32,751 nt of DNA, taken from Anaerococcus senegalensis JC48. GTDB taxonomy: Bacteria > Bacillota > Clostridia > Tissierellales > Peptoniphilaceae. This document shows, one piece after another, positions 5,306 through 32,751 of the stretch (the first letter of the stretch is position 1; each line of letters begins with the position of its first letter). Below the pieces are notes generated by a model, which ran no database searches, had not been told where the DNA came from, and saw only the letters and a list, made by a program, of their open reading frames with translations. The position numbers and the translations under genes were made by a program. Location of the stretch: assembly GCF_000321005.1 (NCBI RefSeq), contig NZ_HE578907.1, forward strand, positions 1,074,952-1,107,702. The letters are read 5' to 3'.

Positions 5306-5404
5306 TTATACCTCCGCAAATTCTCTTTTTAGTTTTTTATTATATTAATTTGATTTAGTTTGGATTTTTTTAAAAAAAGTAAATTAAAAGATAAGCTTAA
5401 CTCA

Positions 5405-5618
5405 AGAGATCTCTCCATGCGTTCGTTTCACTCACACTAAAACACGTTTGCTTTGCAAATTTTTCCGTGCTTATGAAAACTCATTTGCTTTGCAAATTTT
5501 TCCGTGCTACCGCACTAGTTTTCAGGATTTATAACCGAAATCAACGGTTATAAATCTGCACTAAATTTTAGGGATAAATATGCCAAATCAAGGCATATTT
5601 ATCTAGTCGAGATGGGTT
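5405..5618 (+). repeat. family-1 structured dispersed repeat, long copy
   Basis: The element is bounded by the palindrome AGAGATCTCT (5405-5414) and the end CGAGATGGGTT (5608-5618). It is the longest of three full copies in the window (others 14691-14817, 26032-26154). The segment TTTGCTTTGCAAATTTTTCC occurs twice (from 5447 and 5484). Two 12-bp perfect hairpins (5526-5556 and 5573-5603) have entirely different stems, yet both have the loop AAATCAA. A further small hairpin GTGC-TACC-GCAC lies at 5504-5515. No reading frame is evident. It fills most of the 400-bp gap between uvrB and uvrA. Confidence 0.85.
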
Positions 5619-5704
5619 AAAGCTTGTTGTTTCTATCATAAAAATATTACTTTATTTCTACTTTTTTATTTTGGAATAAAATACTTTTTAAATTTCTTTG
5701 AATT

Positions 5705-14078: not shown

Positions 14079-14530
14079 TTAATTCTTCGTTACTAAGGGG
14101 ACAAATTAGGGGACTTCCGATTGTCCCCGCAATTTTTCCCCTTAAACCCCTTTCAACGAACCCCCTTAACCGGCCCTTGCAGGGAGCAAAATCAGAAAGA
14201 AACTTACGTTTCTTTCGTTTTTTAGATTGATTATCCAAATTCAATAAAAATAAGTACCCAAAATAAATAAATTCAAAGTTCATTAAAAGAGAAAAAATAA
14301 ACTCACTACCGTTCAAACAATTTTTTCTCTAATAATTCACTTGAATTTATAGTTATTTTTAAATAGCAGTCAATCTTTAAAAATTTGAGAGAAGCGTTAG
14401 CTTCTTACCTAAATAGCTCCATGCAATGGTCGGTTGCAGGGGGGCAAAAAAGTGGGGGTCGTTAGGGGGAGGAAAAAGGGGGAGAATCGAAACTCCCCCA
14501 TTTCCTCCGCCCTAACATTCCGAAGTATTA
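14079..14530. repeat. family-2 element: two inverted structured repeat units
   Basis: Two homologous units of about 135-140 nt lie head-to-head: unit A on minus (14080-14216) and unit B on plus (14387-14530). They are separated by about 170 nt of A/T-rich sequence. Each unit carries three hairpins in the same order. Hairpin a has 4-nt loops (GTAA, GTTA; arms 14195-14216 and 14390-14405). Hairpin b has loop GCA (14174-14184 and 14419-14429). Hairpin c is long, with loop AATCGGAA or AATCGAAA (14094-14144 and 14462-14515). Stems differ between units by paired changes. The outer ends share CGAAG(A/T)ATTA. G/C-rich hairpins stand out sharply from the AT-rich surroundings. No credible gene is inside. 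It looks like a non-autonomous mobile element. Confidence 0.8.
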
Positions 14531-14586: not shown

Positions 14587-14690
14587 AACTGTTATAAAAA
14601 TAATAGAATTACTCATTTAGAGCAAATAAACTAACTATTATTTAGGTTGCTTGTACAGATTTATCATACTTAGTAATCTGGGAAATCTCA

Positions 14691-14817
14691 TGAGATCTCC
14701 CCATGCGTTCGTTTCACTCACACTAAAACACGTTTGCTTTGCAAACTTCTCCGTGCTTGTGCACTTAGTTTTAGGGATAAATATGCCAAATCAAGGCATA
14801 TTTATCTAGACGAGATG
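14691..14817 (+). repeat. family-1 structured dispersed repeat, medium copy
   Basis: Starts TGAGATCTCC (14691-14700) and ends CGAGATGATT. It contains the GTTTGC-TTT-GCAAAC hairpin (about 14732-14746), GTGC-TTGT-GCAC (14753-14764) and the 12-bp hairpin with loop AAATCAA (14776-14806), all in the same order as the other copies. It lacks the internal duplication of the 5405-5618 copy. CTAAAAC near 14723 can pair with GTTTTAG near 14767-14774 to enclose the first two hairpins. It lies in the 3' untranslated region of glnN. Confidence 0.85.
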
Positions 14818-14850
14818 ATTTTTTTCTTCGCTTTAATAATAATTAAAAAT

Positions 14851-18296: not shown

Positions 18297-19556
18297 ATGG
18301 CAGATACCTTAAATCCATTAAAGTCAGCACAAAGTTAAATAAAAATAGCTTGTCAAAAATTAAATTTGGATCCAGCTGTTTATGATATTTTAAAAGAACC
18401 TCAAAGATTTATAGAAATTTCTATTCCTGTAAAAATGGATGATGGATCTTTGAAAGTATTTAAAGGGTACAGGTCTGCTCACAACAATGCCCTTGGTCCT
18501 TGTAAGGGTGGAGTTAGATTTCATCAAAATGTAAATATAGAAGAGGTTAAGGCTCTATCAACTTGGATGAGTTTAAAAGCAGGTCTTTTAGAATTCCTTA
18601 TGGCGGAGGAAAAGGTGGAATTTCCGTTGATCCAAAAAAATTATCTGAAAGAGAAATAGAATCTTTATCTCGTGGATATATTAGAGGTCTTCATAAATAT
18701 TTGGGAGAAAGAATTGATATTCCTGCACCAGATGTAAACACAAATGGAAAAATAATGTCATATTTTACAGACGAATGTATAAAATTAAATGGATATAGAC
18801 AAGATGTTGGAACTTTTACTGGAAAACCATTAATTCTTGGAGGAAGCCTTGGTAGAGATGAAACTACGGGTTTTGGAGTAGTAATTACTACAAAATATGT
18901 AGCTAAAAAAATAAGACTTGATTTAAAAAATTCTGAAATTAGTCTTCAAGGTTTTGGAAATGTAGGAAGCTATACTTTAAAATATTTGATAAAAGAAGGA
19001 GCAAAAGATAAATATCTTTCAATTAGAGATGAAAGTGAAAAATGTAGACGCTCTGCCCTTTACTCAGAAAATGGATTTGATTATGAATCTTTAAAAAAAT
19101 ATAGAGAAGAACATAAAACTCTTGCAGGATATCCTGATGCTAAAAAAATATCTGATGAATCGTTTTGGAATACAAAATTTGATATATTAATTCCAGCAGC
19201 TCTTGAAAATATTATTACTGAAGAAATAGCTAAAAATTTAGATGTAAAATTAATAGCAGAAGGTGCTAATGGACCTACGGCTGATAAAATTCTTAAAGAA
19301 AAAAATGTAGAAGTTATAGCCGATATTTTGGCAAATTCTGGTGTAGTTTTGGTTTCATACTATGAATGGATTCAAAATCAATATGGCAATTATTGGTCAA
19401 AAGATGAAGTTCAAGAAAAACAAGTTAAGGATATGAAAAAAGCCCTTGATGGAATTTATCAAATAAAAGAAGAATACAAGACTGACTTAAGGGAAGCTTC
19501 ATATGTTTGCAATAAAAAGAATTGCTCAAGCAATGAAACTTAGAGGATGGTATTAA
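18297..19556 (+). pseudogene. gdhA: glutamate dehydrogenase pseudogene (three lesions)
   Basis: Glu/Leu/Phe/Val dehydrogenase (glutamate + NAD(P) to 2-oxoglutarate + ammonia), about 420 codons in total. A good ribosome site (AAGGAG) precedes ATG 18297. The frame MADTLNPLKSAQS then meets TAA at 18336-18338 where Gln is expected (SAQ-Q-IKIAC). It continues well (GPCKGGVRFH) to about 18588, where one G is missing in LLGIPYGGGKGG. The next frame carries PYGGGKGG, APDVNTNG, LQGFGNVGSYT and SYYEWIQNQYGNYW. Near 19502 two nt are missing (TATATG reads TATG). Beyond this a third frame gives the normal end FAIKRIAQAMKLRGWY and stop at 19554-19556. Substrate and NAD motifs are otherwise well kept, so inactivation looks recent. 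Read errors are unlikely to strike only this gene three times. Confidence 0.88.
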
Positions 19557-19557
19557 A

Positions 19558-19580
19558 AAAATCGGGAATTTTTCCCGATT
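19558..19580 (+). terminator. gdhA terminator, T-run truncated at the transposon edge
   Basis: Stem ATCGGGAA/TTCCCGAT after the gdhA stop. The expected T-run is cut to CCCGATT and then runs straight into CCCCATTGGGG of the mobile element. The equivalent hairpin on the far side of the element (20513-20534) retains its full T-run. Confidence 0.6.
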
Positions 19581-20486
19581 CCCCATTGGGGACGCTCAAC
19601 TTTGGCACTTTTATTTAATTATTAATTTTGTTATTATTTTTACAAATTTCTCCTAGATACTTTTAATTTTTCTCCTACAAATCTTTTGCTAAAACCTAGA
19701 TCTACTAATTTTTTTGCATACTCAATTAATTCTTCTCCTTTCAAATTTTTTGTTTTTATGTATTTCATAATATAATTTTGAGCAAAAATTATATCCTCTT
19801 TTGTATCCATTTCTATAGAAAAAAATCTTTCTTTGTGAAAATCATAAAAGTTTTCTTGATTTTTAAAATTCTCTCTAACTTTATCTACAAATTCCTTCTC
19901 TATTGAATAATTAATATTTCTTATAAAAAAATTCTTGTATGAAGTAAATTCATACCTACCAAGATCATTTTCAATGCCTGCAAAAACTGGATTATTATGA
20001 ATGTATCTTAGGACTTCAAATAATTGCTTATATGATTTTATCTCTACAGACTTATACCTATTTTGAAATAAGTGACCATTTCTATCATTTATATAATTAT
20101 AAAATCTTGAATATTTAACATTTATGCTCTTCATTATTTCTGATAAATCATTGATTCCCTTTACATGTACCAAAAAATGAGTGTGATTATCCATTATTGT
20201 ATAAGCATATATTTTCCAATCATATTTTTCATCAAAATATAAATTTAGAATCGTTTCTTTGTAAGATTTTCTTGAGAAAATTTTTTCATGATTTATTCCT
20301 TTTGTCATTATATGAAAAATATTTCCATTTTGCATTTTTCTAGCTAAACGAGCCATAGCCTTCTCCTAAAATTTAAGATATGAATTTTATAAGATTTTTA
20401 TTTATATACCCAAAGCTTTAAATTGTTATAATATATTTAAAATATTTTAATAAATAAGTGTTCCAATAGTGAACGTCCCCAATGGG
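19581..20486. mobile_element. Y1 (RAYT-type) transposase element with imperfect terminal inverted repeats
   Basis: The left end, CCCCATTGGGGACG (19581-19594) followed by CTCAACTTTGGCAC, is matched in inverse on the right by CGTCCCCAATGGG (20474-20486), preceded by an inverse of a TTCACTATTGGAACAC-like stretch. This gives about 27 nt of imperfect terminal inverted repeats. One transposase gene lies inside on the minus strand. The boundaries coincide with the gdhA terminator on the left and with a second gdhA-like 3' tail on the right. Confidence 0.65.
19640..20356 (-). CDS. REP-associated tyrosine (Y1/HUH) transposase
   Basis: 238-aa single-strand DNA transposase of the IS200-like/RAYT family. 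It begins with the family's N-terminal pattern (MARLARK...IFHIMTKGINHEKIF). The HUH metal-binding motif is H58-T-H60 in MDNHTHFLVH. A Tyr in KYSRFYNYIN (about 81-90) is the likely nucleophile, followed by the conserved GHLFQNRYKS. The C-terminus ends in a short helix-turn-helix-like segment (LGFSKRFVGEKLKVS). Length is within the normal range and all catalytic motifs are present, so it may be functional. Such proteins in other bacteria mobilise REP hairpins; whether this one acts on either repeat family here is unknown. Confidence 0.9.
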   Translation of the reverse strand: MARLARKMQNGNIFHIMTKGINHEKIFSRKSYKETILNLYFDEKYDWKIYAYTIMDNHTHFLVHVKGINDLSEIMKSINVKYSRFYNYINDRNGHLFQNRYKSVEIKSYKQLFEVLRYIHNNPVFAGIENDLGRYEFTSYKNFFIRNINYSIEKEFVDKVRENFKNQENFYDFHKERFFSIEMDTKEDIIFAQNYIMKYIKTKNLKGEELIEYAKKLVDLGFSKRFVGEKLKVSRRNL

Positions 20487-20488
20487 TG

Positions 20489-20510
20489 TGAAACTTCGTG
20501 GTTGATATTA
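20489..20510 (+). pseudogene. 3' tail remnant of a second, diverged gdhA
   Basis: TGAAACTT plus the next 26 nt match the end of the gdhA pseudogene (19533-19566) at 30 of 34 positions. The codons read K-L-R-G-stop-Y-stop against K-L-R-G-W-Y-stop. Arg is CGT instead of AGA and Gly is GGT instead of GGA (synonymous), and Trp TGG has become TGA. Silent changes indicate a diverged paralogous or allelic copy rather than a simple target-site duplication. Homology begins right at the right edge of the transposase element. Confidence 0.6.
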
Positions 20511-20534
20511 AAAAAATCGGGATATACCCGATTT
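20511..20534. terminator. bidirectional terminator (DUF1002 gene / gdhA remnant)
   Basis: AAAAAATCGGG, loop ATATA, CCCGATTTTTT. It is symmetric, with A-run and T-run, and ends just before the stop of the convergent DUF1002 gene. Confidence 0.8.
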
Positions 20535-22523: not shown

Positions 22524-22544
22524 TAGCTTAAGATTAAATATAAA

Positions 22545-22826
22545 AACTTTGAAAAGAAGAGTAGCTAATAAATTATAAGCACAGAGAATCTTTGGATGGT
22601 GAAAAAAGATCTTATAATCTTAGTGAATAAAGACTTAGAGTTGTATCGAGGATATTTTGATTCGATATCGTGATTTGCACGTTATAGCAAAGGGGTATAA
22701 TTTTGTACTTTCTTATTGGATCCTTTGAAAGTATATTTTGTACTTAATAAGGATATTTTTGTGAAAAAATATTAAATTTGGGTGGTAACACGGTCTTCGT
22801 CCCTTGAGGGATGAGGACCGTTTTTA
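22545..22826 (+). promoter_or_regulatory. T-box riboswitch, Lys (AAA) specifier
   Basis: Leader that reads tRNA charging. Stem I shows the loop-E pair AGTA (about 22560-22563) and GAA (22625-22627). In characterised T-boxes the codon follows GAA by one base. Here that is GAA-T-AAA-G, giving AAA (Lys) at 22629-22631 followed by the usual purine. The distal part (AGAGAATC, GGATGGTG) and the paired TTATAAG/CTTATAA are canonical. The antiterminator core GGGTGGTAACACGG is at 22780-22793; its TGGT would pair with an ACCA tRNA end, fitting discriminator A of tRNA-Lys. A 14-bp terminator (22790-22823) with T-run competes with it. Uncharged tRNA-Lys should turn on the downstream transporter. Confidence 0.88.
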
Positions 22827-26031: not shown

Positions 26032-26154
26032 TGAGATCTCTCCGCTCGCTTCGCACAAAAACACGTTTATTTCACAAACTTTCCAGTGATATCTCACTTT
26101 GTTTTCGGGGTAAATATTCCAAATCAAGGAATATTTACCTAGTCGAGATGGGTT
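26032..26154 (+). repeat. family-1 structured dispersed repeat, full copy in the cluster
   Basis: Starts TGAGATCTCTCC, ends GTCGAGATGGGTT. The internal order is the same as in the other full copies: AAAACACG near 26059-26066, the small hairpin GTGA-TATC-TCAC (26086-26097) and the 12-bp hairpin with loop AAATCAA (26109-26139). The stems differ from the other copies by paired substitutions. Confidence 0.85.
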
Positions 26155-26297
26155 ATTATTGAATTTTTTTATTCCTAAAGTTTTTTGATTATTAGTGTCT
26201 TTCATTTTATATTTTATTTCGATTAAATTTTTACTTTACGATTTTAATTTTTTTAAAATTTTAATTTAAACTTTAACTTAAAAATAGATAAAAAATT

Positions 26298-31214: not shown

Positions 31215-31312
31215 TTTAAAAAATTATCGCTTTCTTACGCAGGTTTTAACCTATTCAAGTTTAAAGGGTTAATGGAAATCCATCTCTCAGCAATAAGCAC
31301 CCCTAGCTATTT
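31215..31312 (-). promoter_or_regulatory. TPP riboswitch (THI element)
   Basis: On minus the leader reads CTAGGGGTGC, then GCTGAGAGATGGA, then ACCCTTTAAACTTGAATAGG and CCTGCGTAAGAAAGCG. These are the conserved THI-box blocks in the right order (GGGGUGC, CUGAGA, ACCCUU..GAAC-like, CUGCGUAG-like). Thiamine diphosphate binding should favour the downstream terminator and shut off the thi operon. Confidence 0.92.
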
Positions 31313-31314
31313 TT

Positions 31315-32606: not shown

Positions 32607-32670
32607 ATTTCCTCCTTATAGAAAAATATATTTATTTGTTTTTATCTTAAATTTAATAATTTTATTAAAT

Positions 32671-32751
32671 TAATTCTTCGTAAGACTTAGGGCGGAAGGA
32701 ACAGGGGACTTCCGATTGTCCCCTTTTTCCTTCCCCCTAAGAACCCCCATC
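32671..32751 (-). repeat. family-2 structured repeat unit, cut by window end
   Basis: Read on minus it ends in CGAAGAATTA like the other units. Hairpin c is nearly perfect: TTAGGG/CCCTAA, GGAAGGAA/TTCCTTCC and AGGGGAC/GTCCCCT around loop AATCGGAA (32687-32740). Upstream of it GGGGGTTCTTAGG matches the corresponding part of unit B (14454-14467). The rest of the unit lies beyond the window. Confidence 0.8.

Follow-up and report, generated by a model that had tools for sequence, protein, structure and literature searches.

Positions 14079-14530 of a 32,751-nt stretch of Anaerococcus senegalensis JC48 DNA (the window, i.e. that whole stretch) hold small hairpins in two mirror-image sets, and the question that they raise is whether such a repeat is a folded RNA, a piece of DNA that spreads, or the debris of template switching. 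Our answer is that the locus is probably one copy of a non-autonomous, multi-hairpin, interspersed DNA element, BOX/BIME/MITE-like and presumably mobile. This answer builds on what could be observed directly, namely the architecture, the paired change in the stems, the repetition, the intergenic siting, the mostly inverted pairing of units and the differences between species at shared loci. An earlier note, made from the letters of the same DNA, had offered a non-autonomous element or a multi-hairpin RNA; its interpretation as a whole is partly supported, the first of its two proposals is the one favored here, and the repeat family is larger than the note had seen.

Architecture and folding of the element

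From the outside inward, each unit consists of an outer end (e.g. TTAATTCTTCG), hairpin c, a linker, hairpin b and hairpin a; the loop of hairpin c is TTYCGATT or a near variant, and the linker ends in AACCGRC or AAACGRC (Table 1). Two head-to-head units, and a third with the same hairpin order, had been claimed, and they were indeed found both by reading and by placement with R1, a covariance model made from 38 units (alignment A3). The model placed them at 14087-14219 (+, 122.6 bits), 14384-14520 (-, 135.8 bits) and 32682-32751 (+, 66.2 bits); since both units of 14079-14530 were training rows of R1, their bit scores serve placement only. The last match stops at the window end, directly behind which there is a run of Ns with further copy sequence past it; thus, the truncation of this third copy is an assembly gap and not natural. 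Reading also agreed with the arms described for hairpin a (AGAAAC/GTTTCT versus AGAAGC/GCTTCT) and for hairpin b (CCCT-TGC-AGGG versus CCAT-TGC-ATGG). The general description of hairpin c stands as well, but the lower stem given for it, GGAAGGAA/TTCCTTCC, is that of the third unit and not of 14079-14530, where the left unit has TAAGGGGA/TCCCCTTA plus AAATT/AATTT.

Table 1 Features of the element and of the third unit, in window positions
Feature	Positions	Strand	Basis or remark
Whole 452-nt near-palindromic element, two head-to-head units	14079-14530	.	inverted pair placed by model R1
Left outer end TTAATTCTTCG	14079-14089	+	direct reading; other copies end similarly
Left hairpin c	14094-14144	+	folds; A3 pairs
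Left hairpin c, apical stem; loop TTCCGATT	14109-14114 with 14123-14128; loop 14115-14122	+	
Left linker ACCCCCTTAACCGG	14160-14173	+	alignments; polarity count
Left hairpin b, CCCT-TGC-AGGG	14174-14184	+	A3 pairing
Left hairpin a, GAAAGAAAC-TTAC-GTTTCTTTC	14195-14216	+	
AT-rich centre, partly palindromic	14222-14389	.	scores orientation
Right hairpin a, AGAAGC/GCTTCT	14390-14405	-	
Right hairpin b, CCAT/ATGG	14419-14429	-	direct reading; A3 pairing
Right hairpin c; loop TTTCGATT on minus strand	14461-14516; loop 14485-14492	-	reading and fold
Right outer end CGAAGTATTA	14521-14530	-	
Third unit, comprising outer end and hairpin c (left portion of another copy)	32670-32751	+	reading; R1

The G+C content is 21% in the centre, 37% in the whole element and 29% in the window, and in one copy checked no ORF of at least 40 aa lay wholly inside the centre. 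RNA folding of 14079-14530 was far stronger than that of dinucleotide shuffles on both strands (z -13.9 and -10.2), as was DNA folding (z -11.6), with none of 100 shuffles doing as well in any of the three; two longer copies also fold strongly as RNA (z -16.9 and -18.5; 0/20 shuffles doing as well). At four loci (L276, L280, L261, L263), the units are framed, outside CTTCG/CTCCGT, by an extra short hairpin (GGTCATTTACATGACC, GTCATCAAGCTGATGAC) and by hairpins like TTATCCNNGATAA; the full length of the element may thus be greater.

Other structured sequences of the window were seen in passing. A second repeat family, with AAAACACGTTTGCTTTGCAAA and GAGATCTC motifs, occurs beside the element and apart from it (14687-14824, 5401-5621 and 26051-26157). 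A T-box leader (22540-22807, +) precedes an apparent amino-acid transporter gene pair, and a TPP riboswitch (31215-31314, -) precedes thiamine-type genes, the genes in both cases being named by eye.

Copies in Anaerococcus and paired change in their stems

The host genome contains a second full copy (C3:33831-34272, 89%), the gapped copy to which the third unit belongs, and a half copy at C1:1310515. With the window copy as a DNA query, matches at E 0.001 came from 17 of 61 genomes, in some cases through the AT-rich centre alone. The pattern GGGGASTTYCGATTSTCCCC was present in 12 of the 31 genomes of the genus and its backward control in none of the 31, and exact hairpin-core matches in the named sequence collection fell in Anaerococcus records, among others. 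The covariance model, an approach that the earlier note had proposed, found further copies in genomes of the genus: among the matches listed, R1 hit at least 26 of 31 Anaerococcus genomes, with up to at least 33 matches per genome, and the rows of A3 had been drawn from 11 of these 26, leaving 15 positive genomes without a training row. It is to be noted that the match counts exceed the unit counts because hairpin c also scores weakly on the opposite strand. In 35 stretches that were read, there were 82 R1 matches (75 after overlap removal); a plus unit was followed by a minus unit in 24 stretches, giving 30 pairs that span 342-837 nt, and no such pair was seen in the other 11, some of which had been trimmed around a single match.

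Individual copies vary. One gut MAG has 13 copies with a common core that diverge further out on the left, some with extra hairpin modules there. In several species (loci L002, L010, L024, L025, L029, L036 and L305), the 3' arm of hairpin c is interrupted at one and the same position by very roughly 130 bp of inserted sequence (..CCGCGGTATAATTATTGAA..), either a nested element or a variant. One copy in genome G010 is interrupted beside the apparent start of an IS3-type gene, as read by eye. Four copies in three genomes (L002, L186, L187, L300) are broken by runs of Ns; the element thus disrupts genome assemblies.

Pairing in the stems was scored against shuffles in A3, a MAFFT alignment that was not fitted to the structure. 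Paired cells amounted to 89.5% against 81.1% in shuffles, cells changed on both sides to 60 against 20, and the covariation score to 0.254 against 0.116, none of 500 shuffles being as high in any of the three. Two other measures gave no support: the number of pairs with change on both sides (7 versus 5.1; 26/500 as high) and that of further pair types (11 versus 13.7; 500/500 as high). When the partners were slid by one to three columns, only 51-60% of cells paired. All four pairs of hairpin b were formed in 38 of 38 rows, three of them with change on both sides; for hairpin a, 74.4% of cells paired, the diverged rows being misaligned.

Since the bulge registers of hairpin c vary between subtypes, a single alignment of the whole hairpin was abandoned in favor of arm swaps. 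Own arms of its lower stem gave a mean of -21.5 kcal/mol versus -14.1 with arms swapped between unlike units, and only 26 of 974 swaps reached the own-arm mean. For 23 distinct stems, own arms formed 6.74 of 7 pairs and swapped arms 3.74; this set scored 38 of 39 listed hairpins (one dropped), four of the 38 picks were another hairpin within the unit, and the own-arm value is inflated because the windows were picked for best own pairing.

The comparison with shuffles was also made for the core in other Clostridia (23 distinct copies), where 99.5% of cells were paired versus 85.6% in shuffles and the covariation score was 0.327 versus 0.054 (0/500 as high); pairs with change on both sides (493/500 as high) and further pair types (453/500) were not above shuffles. 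Pair 9/32 occurs as AU, GC, UA and CG (one row unpaired) and pair 10/31 as GC, UA and CG. The six inner pairs of hairpin c in this set were dictated by the search pattern and carry no evidential weight; copies retrieved with the models instead of the pattern have different stems, with loops including TTTCGCAT and TTCCGTAT.

The earlier note had taken covariation as a sign of selection on a folded molecule, and had named unpaired stem changes or a lack of more copies as findings that would speak against it; what was found is broad paired change and further copies. Paired change stands, far beyond the original three units, but selection itself is not proven, because template switching at quasi-palindromes also writes paired changes (PMC8794818, in its available portion).

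Relatives in other Clostridia and gene context

A pattern scan of the contig collection returned at least 117 stretches, where about four would be expected at random in a collection of that size by our own arithmetic with equal bases. A second model, R2, was made of hairpin c and the linker (29 rows). In searches with stricter filters, this model of the core (loop TTYCGATT, linker and hairpin b) had matches in 24 of the 391 genomes searched for the class, which represent 17 of 222 genera; training rows had come from no fewer than six of these 24 (G000, G124, G134, G242, G251, G330). Under similarly stricter filters, R2 matched two of 398 genomes in the phylum sample, one of them the window's own. 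Copies from two further genera of the same family (L362, L365) have stems that are quite different, and the letters of loop and linker are kept in other genera and families. The linker also keeps its side of the hairpin: among 151 distinct copies in which a perfect 6-bp stem bears the loop TTYCGATT, it lay downstream in 116, on neither side in 35, and reversed upstream of the loop in none. To our knowledge, known bacterial hairpin repeats are mostly restricted to one species or genus. Likeness of loop and linker over many genera of Clostridia, while the stems change, points to a common trans-acting factor, for which the stems across the class offer a natural covariation set. With the shape kept while the letters change, the core relatives in other Clostridia also indicate that the element probably belongs to a family of mobile elements of small size.

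That the earlier note recognized no named family agrees with Rfam 15, which gave nothing at the gathering cut-off over the window element or the 14 related loci submitted; its matches elsewhere in those sequences were T-box, TPP and Molybdenum riboswitches only. The literature searched gave no description of this family, and the window copy had no match in the plasmid and phage collections. Two IMG/VR viral contigs (L377, L378) carry a hairpin core with linker and hairpin b.

The element is sited between genes. None of 43 Anaerococcus hits and four of 97 other pattern hits fell inside an ORF of at least 150 aa; at one locus (L281), all five elements are situated between larger ORFs, and a mechanically called ORF of 147 aa overlaps one element. 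Convergent gene gaps made up 16 of 50 element gaps against 28 of 183 others (p 0.013), and divergent gaps 4 of 50 against 37 of 183 (p 0.058), kinship being ignored in both comparisons. The 783 neighboring ORFs of at least 100 aa within 3 kb of hits (at least 117 stretches) were clustered, and no transposase was seen among 25 clusters inspected by eye, one member each. An autonomous version beside the element is accordingly not favored, as these 25 look like housekeeping genes by eye.

Shared loci and competing explanations

Seven closely related species (G000, G001, G003, G007, G008, G013 and G030) were compared copy by copy. The listed copies resolve into four loci common to all seven species, and two half copies are private; similarity of the element linked loci II and III, which flank matches set apart. 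Orientation, i.e. the direction of the centre relative to the flanks, was found in both senses at all three shared loci that could be scored, the centre at locus IV being too worn. At locus I, G000, G001, G008 and G030 point one way and G013 the other (G003 and G007 could not be scored); at locus II, those same four again agree and G003, G007 and G013 point the other way; and at locus III, G003, G007 and G008 have one direction and G000, G001 and G030 the reverse, with a solo hairpin in G013. The glutaminase genes of G008 and G030 are 98.2% alike, yet the two differ in orientation at locus III, where identity is 90.6% between their inverted interiors but 95.6% and 98.9% in the flanks; interiors less alike than flanks make replacement likelier than one clean flip.

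Interiors have been lost from some copies in these species. Solo hairpins occur at L059 and L327 where relatives keep the full element; in A. porci, locus II consists of a solo hairpin. In another clade, G019 and G002 show one G015 locus in the inverted direction, and at a second G015 locus G019 has a solo hairpin c. Three of five G015 loci are common to G019 and G002, so many copies are old, which counts against the explanation preferred here. At the glutaminase locus of G013 (L009/L184), half of an older hairpin c with the tail of the nested insert lies downstream of the full element, which it adjoins and which has the opposite orientation.

The two private half copies lie within insertions of 596 bp (G030) and 542 bp (G013), both at terminator-like hairpins. 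The site of the former is without the insert in G000, G003, G008 and G013 and has other sequence in G001 and G007; that of the latter is without it in G001, G007, G008 and G030 and has extra sequence in G000 and G003. Flank overlap, as would mark a target-site duplication, was 19 nt for L298 and 2-3 nt for L306 at these composite insertions, the only ones that could be dated. The inserts resemble each other, and the 596-bp one shares sequence with another common repeat; the half copies thus moved inside another repeat, and the dated insertions show composite movement rather than movement of this element alone. No empty site of a full copy was found among the loci compared, which likewise counts against the preferred explanation.

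The preferred reading, a non-autonomous interspersed DNA element, has parallels among known repeats. In the accessible part of PMC3049150, BOX, RUP and SPRITE of Streptococcus pneumoniae are described as non-coding, structured intergenic repeats that are over-represented between convergent genes, with about half of the insertions common to all strains, and are thought to be non-autonomous parasites. The present element is similarly non-coding, structured, intergenic and commoner between convergent genes. Unlike BOX, described there as a row of modules (boxA-boxB(n)-boxC), it is mostly a head-to-head c-b-a palindrome, with unit ends up to 837 nt apart, and has a core found in many genera of one class, and by description it is set apart from BOX. 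With MITEs, as far as the same excerpt characterizes them, it shares inverted terminal parts, strong base pairing, lack of coding and multiple copies, but its hairpins are richer in G+C than the genome, and the 25 neighbor clusters inspected offered no parent insertion sequence. Like REP, BIME and REPIN in the available portions of PMC2817692 and PMC3116915, it has inverted pairs of hairpin units, intergenic siting and paired stem changes; unlike them, it has three hairpins per unit, of which a minority carry a GTAG head. Furthermore, where REP/REPIN sources portray a RAYT gene flanked by two inverted repeat copies, no unit of the element was seen at the Y1 genes examined, and some carriers of the element are without any Y1 match.

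On this reading, two inverted units (hairpins c, b and a) enclose a non-coding centre, and copies would spread in trans by a putative recombinase or transposase that recognizes the folded hairpins, with loop and linker as candidate recognition letters. Copies may settle mostly between genes and then be inherited in place, and recombination and slippage between arms and copies could reshape them by change of orientation, replacement, or reduction to one hairpin. A bolder version, which we regard as possible though rather doubtful, is a Clostridia-wide family of mobile DNA with folded multi-hairpin single-strand ends, whose loop TTYCGATT and linker AAACGRC are read by a putative recombinase and which flips or is replaced in place via its palindromic arms. 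If true, the neighboring genes would meet the element in either orientation.

A cis-acting or free structured RNA, in which transcribed hairpins protect, end or regulate the neighboring mRNAs and their pairing is maintained by selection acting on the RNA, would account for the stem covariation, the lean to gaps downstream of genes, and the retention of the same four loci in seven species. We nevertheless consider it unlikely, as the units are mostly inverted pairs, such that a transcript would read one unit as sense and the other as antisense, and orientation at one locus differs between close species; Rfam has no match either. Mismatches on the unit strand were also more often A-C than G-T (290 versus 47, or 40 versus 19 when flanked by pairs), a count from related rows with outer ends out of register that weakly fits an RNA of the other strand.

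Neutral quasi-palindromes, the repeats being debris of template switching, need no selection at all, since one arm copied onto the other produces paired changes. As far as the consulted text of these papers goes, RNA hairpins are reported to arise and to be maintained by template switching (PMC8794818), which is also reported to homogenize arms and invert spacers (PMC8604942); this favors such an origin, and the solo hairpins and remnants likewise point to slippage. However, spacer inversion should reverse the loop relative to the linker, and it is reversed in 0 of the 151 copies; the letters of loop and linker persist across genera and families, and dispersal is left unexplained. The fixed polarity of the loop and the retained unpaired linker disfavor template switching as the sole cause, and this origin is accordingly quite improbable.

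Finally, we judge it very unlikely that the repeat is of REP/REPIN type and is mobilized by a RAYT (Y1) enzyme like that encoded at 19640-20356 of the window, as there are carriers without Y1 and no unit at the Y1 loci examined. The inverted pairs of hairpin units do resemble REPINs, a RAYT-like gene is within the window, and GTAG or GTGG, the head as defined in the available text of PMC2817692, stands no more than 8 nt ahead of hairpin a in 20 of the 73 units and no more than 12 nt past it in 24, as counts without a shuffled control. The motif was found in the last 45 nt of 8 of 38 A3 rows, but before hairpin b in none. A Y1 match was absent from R1-positive G002, G003, G004, G008, G014, G016, G017, G025 and G030, including the rich carriers G002 (at least 21 R1 matches) and G017 (at least 15), and from 7 of 12 other carriers, in drafts and MAGs that may be incomplete. 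Conversely, the R1 unit was absent from 20 Y1 loci (12 in Anaerococcus, 8 elsewhere) and from the RAYT gene of the window; the long Y1 genes that G013 and G023 possess lie outside this set, and forms from beyond Anaerococcus may escape R1.

The RAYT-like Y1 transposase gene of the window encodes 238 aa, is near inverted CCCATTGGGGACG ends, and sits between two 34-nt direct repeats (19534-19567 and 20489-20522, 88%). Among the matches listed, Y1 matches in frames of about 240 aa also occur in G013 and G023.
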